A program made the translations under genes and the position numbers. Shown here in pieces: positions 26,915 through 32,741 of a DNA stretch of 40,107 nucleotides. The notes under the pieces were generated by a model, which did not search any database, was not told the origin of the DNA, and worked only from the letters and a program-made list of their open reading frames with translations. The stretch's first letter is position 1. Each line of letters begins with the position of its first letter. The stretch is from an uncultured Clostridia bacterium (lineage in GTDB: Bacteria; Bacillota; Clostridia; UMGS1883): positions 1 to 40,107 of the forward strand of contig CANRJP010000013.1 of assembly GCA_947630975.1 (NCBI GenBank), given 5' to 3'.

Positions 26915-28438
26915 ATGAGCAAAACCCCTATCGCGTTACTTATAATGGACGGCTACGGCATCAACCCCAATTCCGAGGGCAACTGCGTAATGGCCGCAAA
27001 AAAACCAAATCTCGACAAATATATGGCAACCTGCCCCAACACCATTATTTCCGCCAGCGGCCTTGACGTTGGCCTGCCCGACGGACAGATGGGCAACAGC
27101 GAGGTCGGCCACACCAATATAGGCGCCGGACGGATAGTTTACCAAATGCTGGTAAAAATCTCCAAGGACATTCAGGACGGCTCCATAATGAACAACGGCC
27201 CGTTGAAGGCCGCCATGGAGGCAGCCGCCGAGAGCGGAAAAGCCCTGCACCTTTTCGGCCTGCTCTCCGACGGCGGAGTACACAGCCATCAGGAGCACCT
27301 CTACGGCCTTATCGAAATGGCAAAAAAGCTGGGCGTAAAAAAGGCGTATGTTCACGCTTTTCTGGACGGACGTGACACTCCCCCCACATCGGGCGCGGAT
27401 TACATGGCCCAGCTCGTGAAAAAGATGAATGAGCTCGGTCTCGGCAAGGTGGCTACAATTTCCGGCCGTTACTACGCAATGGACCGTGACAACGCCTGGG
27501 ATCGCGTGGAAAAAGCCTATCATGCTCTTGTGCTCGGCGAGGGTGTTCAGGAGACTGACCCGGTACAGGCCATAAAAAATTCTTATGACAAGGGCGTTAC
27601 CGACGAATTCGTGCTGCCCACCGTTGTCGATGCCGACGGCGTTATAACCGAGGGCGACAGCGTTATCAGCTTCAACTTCCGCCCCGACCGGGCGCGGCAG
27701 ATAACCCGCTCCTTCGTCGACCCCGATTTCACCGGATTTGCCCGTCCGAAGGGCTTCTTCCCGGTAAATTATGTGTGCATGGCCCAGTATGACGCCACAA
27801 TGCCAAACGTCACGGTGGCCTATCCTCCGGAGTCCCTTTCCATGACCTTCGGCGAATACGTCAGCAAGCTTGGCCTCACCCAACTGCGCATAGCCGAGAC
27901 TCAGAAGTACGCCCATGTGACCTTCTTCTTCAACGGAGGCGAGGAAAAGCAGTTCCCCGGCGAGGGCCGCATCCTTATCCCCTCCCCCGACGTTCCCACC
28001 TTCGACCTCAAGCCCGAGATGAGCGCCTACGAGGTAAAGGACGCCGTTATAAAGGAGATCGAGGCCGACAAGTACGACGTTATCATACTCAACTTTGCCA
28101 ACTGCGACATGGTCGGCCACACCGGCATAATTCCGGCGGCTATTAAGGCTGTCGAGGCGGTGGACGACTGCGTGGGTCAGGTGACGGAAGCCGTGCTCAA
28201 AAAGGGCGGCGTGGTGTGCATAACCGCCGACCACGGCAACGCCGACCAACTCATCGACCCGGTGACGAAAGCGCCCTTTACCGCTCACACTACCAACCCC
28301 GTTCCTTTCATCGTTGTGGGCGCGGACTGCGGCCCTCTCCGGGAAGGCGGACGGTTGGCCGACATAGCGCCGACGATGCTCAAGCTCATGGGACTGGAAC
28401 AGCCGGCTGAAATGACCGGTCAAAGTCTGGTAAAATGA
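26915..28438 (+). CDS. gpmI: 2,3-bisphosphoglycerate-independent phosphoglycerate mutase
   Basis: This manganese enzyme interconverts 3- and 2-phosphoglycerate. ATG 26915 (MSKTPIALLIMDGYG, 507 residues) follows AGGAGG at normal distance; the open frame to 26840 upstream is unrelated to the family. The nucleophile Ser62 lies in MGNSEVGHTNIGAGR. Substrate and metal residues are seen in HAFLDGRDTPP, FNFRPDRARQ, NFANCDMVGHTG, TADHGNADQ and TAHTTNPVPF. It is full length and apparently intact. Its TGA overlaps the start of a metallophosphoesterase gene by four bases (ATGA). Confidence 0.97.
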   Translation: MSKTPIALLIMDGYGINPNSEGNCVMAAKKPNLDKYMATCPNTIISASGLDVGLPDGQMGNSEVGHTNIGAGRIVYQMLVKISKDIQDGSIMNNGPLKAAMEAAAESGKALHLFGLLSDGGVHSHQEHLYGLIEMAKKLGVKKAYVHAFLDGRDTPPTSGADYMAQLVKKMNELGLGKVATISGRYYAMDRDNAWDRVEKAYHALVLGEGVQETDPVQAIKNSYDKGVTDEFVLPTVVDADGVITEGDSVISFNFRPDRARQITRSFVDPDFTGFARPKGFFPVNYVCMAQYDATMPNVTVAYPPESLSMTFGEYVSKLGLTQLRIAETQKYAHVTFFFNGGEEKQFPGEGRILIPSPDVPTFDLKPEMSAYEVKDAVIKEIEADKYDVIILNFANCDMVGHTGIIPAAIKAVEAVDDCVGQVTEAVLKKGGVVCITADHGNADQLIDPVTKAPFTAHTTNPVPFIVVGADCGPLREGGRLADIAPTMLKLMGLEQPAEMTGQSLVK

Positions 28439-29313
28439 TAGAAAAATATCTGGAAGCCTTGGCCGGCCGGGCCATTCATCGGGTCTGGCTGGTCAGCGAT
28501 CTCCAGCAGCACGACCCTGACCGGAGCCGCCGCTGTATGTATACGGCGGCGGACGATTTTGCGAGCCTTGGTCTGGAATGCGAAAAGGTATGGTATCTGG
28601 GCGACAGCGTGGAGGGTTCGAACCTCGACAAGCTTCTTGACATGACAAAAATGCAGGAGGAGGTCTTTCTCCGGCTTGGTCTGCCTGTCTGCTACACTCC
28701 CGGCAACCATGACATGGACTACCTTGTCGCCTCCGGAGAGGCTCTTATCCCCTTTCGGGACATGGTGCTCGACCACAAAAAGGACGGCTGGAAAACCACC
28801 GAAAACATAACGGATTTTTACTTCTGGGATAAACTTGGGAGCTTCGACGTTCTGTTTTACGCCGACTGCGCCGCGCCCGACGCCCGCTGGCACTTTTGCC
28901 ACGGGCGGCCCTATGGCGGCGGCTATCCGTATACATATGAGGATTTCCGCCGTTTGGCGGACGAACGGGATAAAAAGACGGCGGTCATAACAGCCGGACA
29001 TTATTCCTATCCGGGCGGCAACCGTGCCACGGAGTATATGGGGGAATTTCTTCCTCTTAAAGACAATGTTAAGCTCCACGTCTACGGTCACGCTCATGTT
29101 GGCGACAAGGTTTGGGCCGGTAAGGATTGGGGACGGCAGATTTGCGGCGTCGACGGCCATACGCTCACTCAGGTCAATATTTCCAGCCTTGAGGTCGGAC
29201 GCGGCAACGCCATCCGCAGCGCTTTTTTAGAGGTGTACGGCGACAGTTCCCTCGCTGTGATTTTCCGCAATCACAGCGTAAAGAAATGGGACAAATTGCT
29301 TGTATTAAATTAA
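28435..29313 (+). CDS. Calcineurin-like metallophosphoesterase, substrate unknown
   Basis: This 292-residue cytoplasmic phosphoesterase has metal motifs in the usual order: SDLQ near residues 21-24, GDSVEGSN near 56-63, GNHD near 87-90, the His in TAGHYSYPG near 185 and GHAH near 217-220. The first motif is normally D-x-H; here the His is replaced by Gln, a variant also known in active members. The start overlaps the gpmI stop (ATGA). No signal peptide is present. Its function is not deducible, and the tight link with gpmI may be only transcriptional. Confidence 0.85.
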   Translation: MIEKYLEALAGRAIHRVWLVSDLQQHDPDRSRRCMYTAADDFASLGLECEKVWYLGDSVEGSNLDKLLDMTKMQEEVFLRLGLPVCYTPGNHDMDYLVASGEALIPFRDMVLDHKKDGWKTTENITDFYFWDKLGSFDVLFYADCAAPDARWHFCHGRPYGGGYPYTYEDFRRLADERDKKTAVITAGHYSYPGGNRATEYMGEFLPLKDNVKLHVYGHAHVGDKVWAGKDWGRQICGVDGHTLTQVNISSLEVGRGNAIRSAFLEVYGDSSLAVIFRNHSVKKWDKLLVLN

Positions 29314-29419: not shown

Positions 29420-30217
29420 ATGGACAATCGCCCTATTGGGGTTTTCGACAGCGGTCTGGGAGGACTGACCGCCGTAAAACAACTGATAAGCGTTATGCCC
29501 GATGAGGATATAGTCTATTTCGGAGATACCGGCCGTGTGCCCTACGGCAACCGCAGCCGGGAAACAATTATTAGATACACGCGGGACGACATCAATTTCC
29601 TGCTTGAGCACAATATTAAACTGATAATAGCCGCCTGCGGCACCGCAAGCAGCGTGGCTCTGCCGTACATAAACGATGTCGGCGTAAAGATAATAGGTGT
29701 GCTTGAACCGGCCTGTCAAGCCGCCCTGAAACGTACAAGAAACGGAAAAATAGGCGTCATCGGCACGGCAGGCACCATAAAAAGCGACAAATATGCCCAG
29801 ATAATCAATTCACTCGACCCTGCGGCGCGGGTTTTCAGCGCGGCTTGCCCAATGTTTGTGCCCATTGTTGAAAACGGTTACGCCAACACGGAGGTTGCAA
29901 GGACAGTCGCCATGGATTACCTGTCCGGCCTGAAAAATGAAGGAGTGGACACACTTATCTTGGGATGCACACATTACCCCTTGCTTGAAGGTGTAATAAG
30001 TGATATAATGGGCGATGGAGTGGAGCTTATATCCTCCGGCAGCGAGGCGGCCCGATACGCAAAAAAACTGCTTGACCGTGAGGGTCTGCTGACTGACCGC
30101 CGCACGGAAGGCCATCGGGAGTTTTATGTTTCCGACGACGTGGAGAGCTTTGTCCAGTTGGGCGGACTGTTCCTGGGCCGGGAAATCGAACTGAACGTCC
30201 ATAGAATGAAATTTTAA
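29420..30217 (+). CDS. murI: Glutamate racemase
   Basis: This makes D-glutamate for peptidoglycan. ATG 29420 gives MDNRPIGVFDSGLGGLT (265 residues), with GGAGG seven bases upstream; the open frame to 29360 upstream is not family sequence. Catalytic residues: Asp10/Ser11 in GVFDSGLGG, the first cysteine in ACGTASS near 74 and the second in LGCTHYPLL near 184. Most racemases have ACNTA in the first motif, so the Asn is Gly here, a change I believe also occurs in other Clostridia. The PYGNRSRETI loop is normal. It lies before the DUF1934 gene. Confidence 0.93.
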   Translation: MDNRPIGVFDSGLGGLTAVKQLISVMPDEDIVYFGDTGRVPYGNRSRETIIRYTRDDINFLLEHNIKLIIAACGTASSVALPYINDVGVKIIGVLEPACQAALKRTRNGKIGVIGTAGTIKSDKYAQIINSLDPAARVFSAACPMFVPIVENGYANTEVARTVAMDYLSGLKNEGVDTLILGCTHYPLLEGVISDIMGDGVELISSGSEAARYAKKLLDREGLLTDRRTEGHREFYVSDDVESFVQLGGLFLGREIELNVHRMKF

Positions 30218-30250: not shown

Positions 30251-30667
30251 ATGAAACAAGTTTATGTTGAAATAAATGGAAATGTGACATCAAGCGGTGA
30301 AACGGATTCCATGAGCTATTCCACCGAGGGACGTTTCTATAAAAAATCCGGAAAATTTTATATCAACTACCCGGAAGGTGAGCTGCTGGGCAGGGAACAG
30401 TGCAGCACCACCCTCAAGGTGACGCCCGACGGGGTCGTAACTATGCTCCGCAGCGGCGAGACCAACACACGCATGGTGTTTGAAAAAGGCCAATGCCACA
30501 TGAGCTGCTATGAAACGCCTTTCGGCAATCTCACCGTCAGCGTTACCGCTAACGACGTGAAGATCGATATGGGCGAAAACGGCGGACGACTTGATTTGGA
30601 CTACAACCTCACTATCAACAGCACCTCCCACAGCCGCAACCGTTTGAGTATAAATGTGCGCCCATGA
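30251..30667 (+). CDS. DUF1934 family protein (YwiB-like)
   Basis: This 138-residue protein matches the DUF1934/YwiB pattern: a calycin-like beta barrel beginning VYVEINGNVTSSGETDSM, with YEETPFG-like CYETPFGNLTVSV near 96-108 and a DLDYNLTINSTSHSRNRLSI ending (about 115-134), the last typical of the family. Function is unknown. In B. subtilis the homologue ywiB is the neighbour of argS, the arginyl-tRNA synthetase gene. Here the next gene, overlapping by four bases (ATGA), is a core-less ArgRS-like protein, so the link is kept in altered form. ACGGAGATC supplies the ribosome site. Confidence 0.87.
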   Translation: MKQVYVEINGNVTSSGETDSMSYSTEGRFYKKSGKFYINYPEGELLGREQCSTTLKVTPDGVVTMLRSGETNTRMVFEKGQCHMSCYETPFGNLTVSVTANDVKIDMGENGGRLDLDYNLTINSTSHSRNRLSINVRP

Positions 30668-31296
30668 ACACGCGTATTGAAGAGGAAAAATCACGTATAA
30701 GGACGCTCTGCCAAAAGGCTGCCACGGAGCTTTACGGCTTTTGTCCGGAGTTCACCGTTGAACGTCCAAGGGACAGGCGGAACGGCGATTTTGCGTCGTC
30801 CGCGGCTTTGGCTCTCGGCGGAGCTCTTAAGCGCCGCCCATCGTTGATCGCGGCTGAAATGGCCGAAAAAATCACTCTGCGGGACGGCGAATGGCTGGAG
30901 CCGGGTGGAAAGGGTTTTTTGAACTTTCATTTACGTCCGGATTTTTTGCTTAGTTTTCTCGAACCGGCGGCTGAGCTTCCGTACCTTCCCATTCCCGACC
31001 CGGGTTCGCCGGAATTTGACGCCGTTTACCCTTATCACCGGCTGCGAAAGATATTGGAGCTGAGAGGCAGGGCGCCCGAGGGCCGTCAGGATACGGGGCT
31101 GCTGACGTCCCCTTATGAAGTGCGTCTGCTATGGGCGCTGGCGGACGGGAAACGTGACGAGCTGGCTTCGGCGGCCATGGAGTTCTATGACCGAGTGGAG
31201 CTGTCGCCGGACTTCCCTCCTTTGGCGGAGGCACGTTATATTTTGCTTAACAATGCGCTGCGCAAAATGTACTGCGCGGGAAAGGAGCTGTCATGA
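30664..31296 (+). CDS. ArgRS-like protein: N-terminal tRNA-binding domain joined to DALR domain, no catalytic core
   Basis: The product is 210 residues against about 560 for arginyl-tRNA synthetase. Residues 10-95 look like the ArgRS N-terminal domain: VERPRDRRNGDFASSAALALG, an IAAEMAEKI helix, and GKGFLNFHL where ArgRS has GPGFINFFL. After a Pro-rich linker (about 102-117), residues 118-210 resemble the C-terminal DALR anticodon-binding domain (YPYHRLRKIL, SPYEVRLLWALA, ELASAAMEFYDRVEL, ARYILLNNALRKM). The HIGH motif and whole Rossmann core are absent. Both ends overlap neighbours by ATGA, so the frame is kept rather than decayed. It should bind RNA but cannot charge tRNA. An argS remnant or an evolved regulator are the alternatives. 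Confidence 0.78.
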   Translation: MNTRIEEEKSRIRTLCQKAATELYGFCPEFTVERPRDRRNGDFASSAALALGGALKRRPSLIAAEMAEKITLRDGEWLEPGGKGFLNFHLRPDFLLSFLEPAAELPYLPIPDPGSPEFDAVYPYHRLRKILELRGRAPEGRQDTGLLTSPYEVRLLWALADGKRDELASAAMEFYDRVELSPDFPPLAEARYILLNNALRKMYCAGKELS

Positions 31297-32741
31297 AACA
31301 GAAATTTATCTCTCTTATGCTGGCGCTTTTGCTGACGGTAACGCCGACCTTTGCCGAAAACGGAGCCGGCGCCGAAGCGGAAAATAATACGCCGGTCATT
31401 TCCCCCTCCAGGCAGGAAAGCATTATCCGCGAATTTGCTCACACTTTGGCGGACAACTATTATTACGGCGCCACGGATCAGAATATACTTTATAATGTCA
31501 TTTGCGCCACGATTGAGAACGGCGGCGTGTTTGACCTGGACAAAGCCCTTGAAGCCATGATAATAAGCCTCAACGACGATTACGCCGAGTATTACAGCCC
31601 CGACTCCTATGACGAGCAGTCCCAATATTACAGCGCGGAATTTTTCGGAATCGGAGCGGTGCTCACGGTAAAGGACGGCGGCACCGTCATCGATACGGTC
31701 TACACCGGCAGCGCGGCCGATGTTGTGGGACTTAAGCCGGGCGACAAAATAATGCTGGTAGACGGGACGGACACTTCGAATATGCCCCCGGCCCAAACTC
31801 GCCAGCTTCTTGTTGGGGACGAGGGAACCTTTGTGGACATTACCGTACTGCGCGGCGAAGAGCTTATAAACGTCAGAGCCGTCCGCCAAAAGGTGACCGA
31901 AAGCCATTCCACCATGGAATTGCTGGACGGCGGCGTCGCGGTCATCGACATTGACTCTTTCACGGGCTCGCTGGACGGGGAGTTCGACTCATATCTCGAG
32001 GAACTGACCTCCAAGGACATTCGCAAGGTTATCATAGACCTGCGCGACAACGGCGGCGGCGATATAAACGCGGCCATCTCCGTGGCTCAAAAGCTTGTTT
32101 CCGCCGGGTTAATCGCCAAGCTGAAGTATAAGAACGAAGCGAACAACGAAAATATATATTCCGAAAACCTCAACGCTCCCAATTTGGACATTTTGGTGCT
32201 TACCAACGGAATGACGGCCTCGGCCAGCGAATTTCTGGCTATGGCTCTCCGAAGCAGGGGGCGGGCGAAGCTTCTCGGTGAAAAGACCTACGGGAAGGGC
32301 AGTATGCAGATAATGATGCGCACCCCGACGGGCAGCGGACTGAAATTTACCATAGGTGAATTTTATACTCCCAACGACGAGCGCGTCCACACCGTCGGCC
32401 TCACTCCGGACATTCCCGTCAGCAACATCGTCATTCCGGTGGACGAAAGTCAGTTTGCCGAAATCAGGTTGGATAAACTCAATCTGCCCGCCAGCAAAAA
32501 AGGCGTGGAGCAGCGGCTCAACGCTCTCGGCCTTCTTCCGGACAGCGCCGTGGACGGGTACTACGACGCTTATACCGAGGCGGCGGTGCGGATATTCCAG
32601 CAGAACAGAAACATTGAGGTGACCGGTCAGGTGGACTTTTACACAGCTTTCTACCTTAACGACTGGGAATATGACGGCCTGACAAAAATCATCGACGTTC
32701 AGATGGAAAAGGCGCTTGAATACTTCGGGGCAAATAATTAA
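31293..32741 (+). CDS. S41 C-terminal processing peptidase with peptidoglycan-binding domain
   Basis: This exported serine protease of 482 residues has a signal peptide (about 1-21, cut after TFA), a PDZ domain (about 112-198) and a catalytic domain with Ser310 in NGMTASASE and Lys335/Gln339 in KTYGKGSMQ. The spacing of 25 and 29 residues equals that of B. subtilis CtpB (Ser309, Lys334, Gln338). The C terminus (about 395-455) is a PG_binding_1-like repeat, GVEQRLNALGLLP...VDGYYDAYTEAAVRIFQQ, which tethers it to the wall. It overlaps the previous gene by ATGA. Its TAA stop is part of the left end of the 178-bp repeat. Role in sporulation signalling is possible but not shown. Confidence 0.92.
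   Translation: MKQKFISLMLALLLTVTPTFAENGAGAEAENNTPVISPSRQESIIREFAHTLADNYYYGATDQNILYNVICATIENGGVFDLDKALEAMIISLNDDYAEYYSPDSYDEQSQYYSAEFFGIGAVLTVKDGGTVIDTVYTGSAADVVGLKPGDKIMLVDGTDTSNMPPAQTRQLLVGDEGTFVDITVLRGEELINVRAVRQKVTESHSTMELLDGGVAVIDIDSFTGSLDGEFDSYLEELTSKDIRKVIIDLRDNGGGDINAAISVAQKLVSAGLIAKLKYKNEANNENIYSENLNAPNLDILVLTNGMTASASEFLAMALRSRGRAKLLGEKTYGKGSMQIMMRTPTGSGLKFTIGEFYTPNDERVHTVGLTPDIPVSNIVIPVDESQFAEIRLDKLNLPASKKGVEQRLNALGLLPDSAVDGYYDAYTEAAVRIFQQNRNIEVTGQVDFYTAFYLNDWEYDGLTKIIDVQMEKALEYFGANN

Follow-up and report, generated by a model that had tools for sequence, protein, structure and literature searches.

Arginyl-tRNA synthetase (ArgRS) has a settled place in the relatives of the bacterium considered here, where a full-length argS directly follows DUF1934 in the order murI-DUF1934-argS-S41 peptidase. 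In the DNA analysed in this study, a stretch of 40,107 nucleotides from an uncultured Clostridia bacterium (the window), that place is occupied by an open frame for a protein of only 210 residues, which a reading of the sequence alone had described as an ArgRS stripped of its catalytic core. This raises three questions: what remains of the synthetase in the short protein, how the gene arose, and why it is kept. The features to which we refer are as follows, in window coordinates.

29420..30217, plus strand: murI (glutamate racemase), in the same syntenic block (PF01177; synteny)
30251..30667, plus strand: DUF1934 (ywiB-like) gene, upstream neighbour (PF09148, 125 bits; synteny)
30664..31296, plus strand: core-less ArgRS-derived gene, 210 residues, ATG start and TGA stop (open reading frame, PF03485, orthologues, dN/dS)
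30664..30667, plus strand: ATGA start/stop overlap with DUF1934 (frame boundaries)
30664..30963, plus strand: ArgRS N-terminal (D-loop/A20-binding) domain, residues 1-100 (PF03485; hhalign; AlphaFold elements)
30904..30927, plus strand: A20-pocket strand, residues 81-88, GGKGFLNF (alignment with native ArgRS; pocket residues from PMC8975779)
30964..31014, plus strand: proline-rich linker, residues 101-117 (alignment; no regular secondary structure in the models)
31015..31293, plus strand: shortened DALR-type anticodon-binding domain (ABD), residues 118-210, four helices (hhalign; VIA fold matches)
31293..31296, plus strand: ATGA stop/start overlap with the S41 peptidase gene (frame boundaries)
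31293..32741, plus strand: S41 peptidase gene, downstream neighbour (PF03572, 143 bits)

Results

Both outer domains of ArgRS are retained, one of them shortened

The sole Pfam match in the short protein is to the N-terminal domain of ArgRS (Arg_tRNA_synt_N, PF03485; residues 12-90, E 2e-10, 41.6 bits against a cut-off of 21.5), and the N-terminal half aligns with the native N-domain of a sister genus at an hhalign probability of 99.7%, in agreement with the tRNA-binding domain originally assigned to this end of the protein. The same Pfam search matched neither the catalytic domain (PF00750) nor the HIGH or KMSK motif anywhere in the 210 residues. When the protein is aligned with native ArgRS a gap opens at about residue 117, and a proline-rich linker of about 17 residues stands where the native enzyme has its class I catalytic core of about 325 residues, so the absence of HIGH and the Rossmann core had been read correctly, as had the proline-rich join between the domains.

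The C-terminal half is more diverged. Single-sequence HMMs (Pfam DALR) gave no match to it, and its assignment comes from profile comparison, in which it matched the ABD of the sister-genus native ArgRS at an hhalign probability of 93.7% and a score of 44.1; the best score among 200 column-shuffled control profiles was 11.1. The domain is about 26 residues shorter than the native one and lacks the C-terminal APE(K/Q/R)M tail. Of the proposal that a DALR-type anticodon domain is kept, the homology therefore holds, by profile and by fold, whilst the domain is not intact. Scores for ArgRS as a whole protein (TIGR00456) are 24.3-30.8 bits for the short proteins, under the cut-off of 261.65, and an NCBIfam search of the window protein returned weak N-terminal matches only, to ArgRS and NrtL. 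By family membership, then, the protein has the N-domain and a shortened DALR ABD of ArgRS, and neither the catalytic core nor the whole-protein score.

Predicted structures agree with this division. AlphaFold2 gave a pLDDT of 90.6 and a pTM of 0.82 for the window protein, and 91.2 and 0.82 for an orthologue (G006) that is 46% identical to it. The N-domain elements in the window model are helices at residues 3-24, 47-55 and 59-69 and strands at 43-45, 77-80 and 86-89. For each model the top 15 PDB entries by Z were all ArgRS (Z 11-16), 14 of which align over 187-202 residues covering both domains, at 2.8-4.2 Å, the remaining one being an N-domain fragment. The next fold matches were the ABDs of other synthetases (Z about 6-7); the VIA matches to the ABD were ArgRS, GlyRS, MetRS and CysRS. 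Foldseek likewise ranked ArgRS first, yet the global rmsd to full-length chains was large, and how the two domains sit with respect to each other is for that reason a prediction only. Profile and fold comparison with ArgRS, which had been proposed as the check on the original reading, thus gave a match for both halves.

The short form is common to one genus

All eight genomes of the genus carry the short form. It is absent from the 13 others in the family, each of which has one PF03485 match, in a frame of 560-618 residues. The orthologues in the seven other genus members are 45-71% identical to the window protein over nearly its full length, with open frames. Further afield, a PF03485 survey of 391 genomes of the class showed no intact core-less ArgRS outside the genus among the matches listed; short frames in G092, G178, G306, G357 and G370, also among the matches listed, are cut by contig ends or a run of N. 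Searches of plasmids and viral contigs gave no relatives of the short gene, and a mobile-element source was rejected.

A core-less gene in a single contig might reflect faulty assembly or binning, or a deletion confined to one strain. The genus genomes with named records are all MAGs, namely several uncultured Clostridia assemblies labelled Lapin (a label that probably denotes rabbit gut) and one Oscillospiraceae MAG, HAN083, and contigs break at the short gene in two of the eight genomes (G001 and G004). Against this, the short form is shared by eight separately assembled, species-level genomes, including several Lapin assemblies and HAN083, at 45-71% identity and with intact frames, and several copies lie well inside long contigs (442,858, 409,044 and 149,540 bases). 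Since relatives within the genus are short in every case, where a full core in any of them would have pointed to a deletion or an assembly error, we consider this explanation refuted, with a negligible residual probability.

The native argS was cored in place

The position of the gene identifies its source. In the sister genus G010 the genes run pgk-tpi-gpmI-murI-DUF1934-argS (559 residues)-S41-like frame, and in the genus itself they run gpmI-(phosphoesterase)-murI-DUF1934-short gene-S41, so that the survey of the DUF1934 neighbourhood finds a full argS in the sister genera and the short form throughout the genus, in what had been recognised from the window as the argS position. A metallophosphoesterase gene (28435-29313 in the window) lies between gpmI and murI in G000 (the genome of the window), G007 and G003 and is missing from that gap in G006 and in G010, a smaller lineage-specific change within the operon-like block of murI and DUF1934. 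As also noted from the letters of the window, the frame is intact and overlaps its neighbours by ATGA on both sides. The upstream junction is ATGA or GTGA in each genus member in which it is visible, and the downstream overlap with the S41 gene is ATGA in seven of eight, that of G005 being longer. No methyltransferase gene, other modification enzyme or evident partner gene adjoins the short gene.

The genus also encodes a second, full-length ArgRS, as had been anticipated for a genome that carries a core-less one. In G000 it is a protein of 585 residues encoded on the minus strand of another contig (C74:7032-8789), unlinked to the short gene on C13; it matches TIGR00456 over residues 5-585 at 371 bits, has its own N-domain and ABD, and is the sole PF00750 match in the genome. 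In G000 its gene overlaps by one base a gene for a HAD-type phosphatase-like protein with a DLDGT motif. Six of the eight genus genomes yielded this second type (about 250 bits to PF00750), with the G005 copy lying in two pieces on separate contigs. None was found in the sister genomes that were tested, and their native ArgRS scores 67-83 bits. A direct search did not find the second type in G007 or G001, and these two genomes also lack the HAD-type gene next to it in G000 and G003; the locus is therefore probably unassembled there. From this distribution we infer that the second ArgRS was acquired on the stem of the genus, where it presumably charges tRNA-Arg.

The second enzyme was considered as the source of the C-terminal half of the short protein and rejected: the full-length ArgRS of the genus has an ABD that scores 10.9 against that half, at the level of the shuffled profiles (maximum 11.1), as compared with 44.1 for the native ABD. 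In a tree of N-domains the short and native forms are split from the second ArgRS with support of 100/99. It is almost certain that the short gene is the ancestral native argS, at its original place, and that it has been maintained. The in-frame loss of its catalytic core took place in the same lineage as the gain of the divergent second enzyme, and the takeover of tRNA-Arg charging by the acquired ArgRS would have been the event that permitted it.

Selection maintains the short gene

The sequence-only reading took the gene to be maintained and proposed dN/dS as a measure of this. The least saturated pair, G004-G006, has a dN of 0.12 and a dS of 0.79, giving a dN/dS of 0.16 (Fisher P 2e-21), and the other pairs computed give 0.09-0.29, ratios that are rough because dS in most of them is high and often saturated. 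Across computed pairs Fisher P runs from 2e-12 to 5e-34, and none of the eight species shows a frameshift or stop in the gene. Both halves contribute: for G004-G006, pN/pS is 0.11/0.53 in the N-terminal half and 0.10/0.43 in the C-terminal half, pN being well under pS in each. The gene is nevertheless the fastest-evolving of its block (71% protein identity between G000 and G007, where its neighbours have 78-97%), and it evolves faster than the second ArgRS too (80% against 94% for G004-G006). Purifying selection thus acts on both halves, and the constraint is real but loose.

Rapid evolution, together with ATGA or GTGA overlaps kept at both ends across the genus, is what would be expected of a relic still in decay, or of a frame kept only to couple the translation of DUF1934 and the S41 peptidase. 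A pure coupler, however, would leave its amino acids unconstrained, and the depression of pN in both halves, the dN/dS and Fisher values and the intact frames in eight species speak against either form of the idea. The dN/dS values largely exclude it, and we regard it as very improbable.

The D-loop pocket is better preserved than the anticodon domain

In E. coli ArgRS, residues F36, Q40, A78 and N84 hold A20 of tRNA-Arg, and F82 stacks on it (PMC8975779). With E. coli numbering mapped by motif alignment (xGxGFxN), positions 81, 85 and 87 of the short protein (G81, F85 and N87 in the window) correspond to A78, F82 and N84. Among the eight short proteins residue 81 is G or A, residue 85 is F or Y, and N87 is invariant. 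Four tRNA-Arg genes were found in G000 (anticodons TCT, CCG, ACG and CCT), and each has GGA in the D-loop, the A being A20. The tRNA-Arg(CCT) gene, on contig C11, is 75 nt long compared with 77 nt and clearly unlike the other three in sequence. Preservation of the pocket suggests that D-loop binding may still be under selection.

Conservation elsewhere in the protein is poorer. All eight short proteins keep 9 of 24 conserved native N-domain positions and 7 of 44 conserved native ABD positions, nine of the latter being deleted, and the ABD has lost the region of the FHSFY motif together with the AP..M tail that is invariant at the native C-terminus. A literature search on the C-terminal methionine gave nothing usable. 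The short proteins have a net charge of about zero to -9 and hence are not strongly basic. With most conserved ABD residues and the tail gone, anticodon recognition is doubtful and probably weakened; reading of the D-loop is likelier to have been kept than reading of the anticodon, given the contrast between the pocket and the ABD.

Discussion

Considering these results together, the explanation that we favour is that the native argS was cored in place after a second ArgRS took over, and was kept as a tRNA-Arg-binding adaptor or regulator; as a whole we put its chances just short of even. Its parts carry different weight. Whether the short protein binds tRNA-Arg is, to judge by its residues, an evenly balanced matter, with the retained A20 pocket favouring binding, and a non-catalytic adaptor or regulator role, proposed by analogy, is more tentative. 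The remaining D-loop-reading N-domain and trimmed ABD would constitute a non-catalytic tRNA-Arg-binding protein that might grip the elbow at A20 and the anticodon arm, leaving the acceptor end free, and in that way could serve another process, for example tRNA modification, the keeping of a tRNA reserve or regulation, by presenting tRNA-Arg, sequestering it or monitoring it. Regulator, chaperone and partner of a full ArgRS, the roles first suggested for this protein, are all plausible, an obligatory partnership being the least favoured of the three because the full ArgRS is itself complete.

The low proportion of conserved positions kept in all eight proteins (7/44 and 9/24) could also be read as the mark of a scaffold whose fold was exapted, tRNA binding having been lost or become secondary, and whose present ligand is a different RNA or a protein; it might, for instance, regulate its operon or be a partner of DUF1934. 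Positions newly invariant in the genus (for example L127, P150, A170 and D176) and the conserved operon position with its tight overlaps fit such a change of ligand. The A20-pocket residues, however, are among those kept, and no result indicates an alternative ligand; we think exaptation rather unlikely.

A further possibility is that the short protein serves the acquired ArgRS in trans, as an accessory subunit that improves its use of the native tRNA-Arg. Loss of the core and the second ArgRS are both limited to one genus, and SLIMP, a metazoan mitochondrial SerRS paralogue with an ablated active site and retained tRNA recognition that supports SerRS2-alpha, shows that a dead synthetase derivative is able to act as a subunit (PMC10570016). 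The acquired enzyme, on the other hand, is complete and has its own N-domain and ABD, its gene is unlinked to the short gene, and the two proteins would compete for one tRNA surface, all of which make this arrangement improbable.

Our preferred reading, a cored ArgRS kept as an adaptor or regulator, can be set against several known systems. The closest is the native ArgRS of the sister genera, with which the short protein shares its place after DUF1934 and before the S41 peptidase gene, both outer domains and the predicted fold; it differs in having lost HIGH, the Rossmann fold and KMSK (some 325 residues) and in its trimmed, tail-less ABD. NrtL (NF045898, 327 positions), an ArgS-related anticodon-binding protein, likewise derives from ArgRS by deletion of the central catalytic region. 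Its profile positions 41-151 match residues 36-155 of the second ArgRS, and positions 169-327 match residues 396-559 of the native G010 enzyme, from which it seems that NrtL still has some of the HIGH region, as well as the region from KMSK to the ABD. The short protein, unlike NrtL, lacks the HIGH and KMSK parts altogether, and three orthologues score 26.8, 36.8 and 25.7 bits against the NrtL profile, through the N-domain, where the cut-off is 340; it thus differs from NrtL in both score and architecture, and the two are not closely related and probably of independent origin. NrtL itself looks like an ArgRS minus about 230-240 central residues and may mark other replaced argS loci; a literature search on it gave nothing usable.

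DALRD3 of vertebrates resembles the short protein in combining an ArgRS-type DALR domain with the absence of the synthetase catalytic motif, a combination found here by Pfam and hhalign; it binds specific tRNA-Arg species and targets METTL2 to tRNA-Arg (PMC7237682). DALRD3 is larger, works with METTL2 for m3C and has an independent origin, and no METTL2-like partner was identified for the short protein. On the boldest view this lineage would have swapped its ArgRS and turned the displaced gene, where it stood, into a non-catalytic protein that reads the identity base A20 and controls or modifies the pool of arginine tRNAs. Such a protein would be the counterpart of DALRD3 in bacteria, with coring in place of duplication as its origin; we consider this possible though unlikely. 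SLIMP is similar in being derived from a synthetase and having no catalysis; it differs in its class II SerRS ancestry, in keeping a collapsed catalytic fold and in being a subunit of an active enzyme.

Gene duplication is the usual origin given for non-catalytic proteins derived from synthetases, whose history is hard to make out. Core-deleted derivatives of ArgRS are already catalogued, as NrtL; the short protein keeps even less of the enzyme, and its origin in place is traceable. The steps of coring can be read from living relatives, from the intact native gene through the second enzyme and the loss of the core in place to selection in at least eight species. What coring left behind is a protein of about 210 residues and two modules, a naturally minimal candidate for binding tRNA-Arg, with which it becomes testable how much of tRNA identity recognition survives removal of the enzyme, and to what use it is put.
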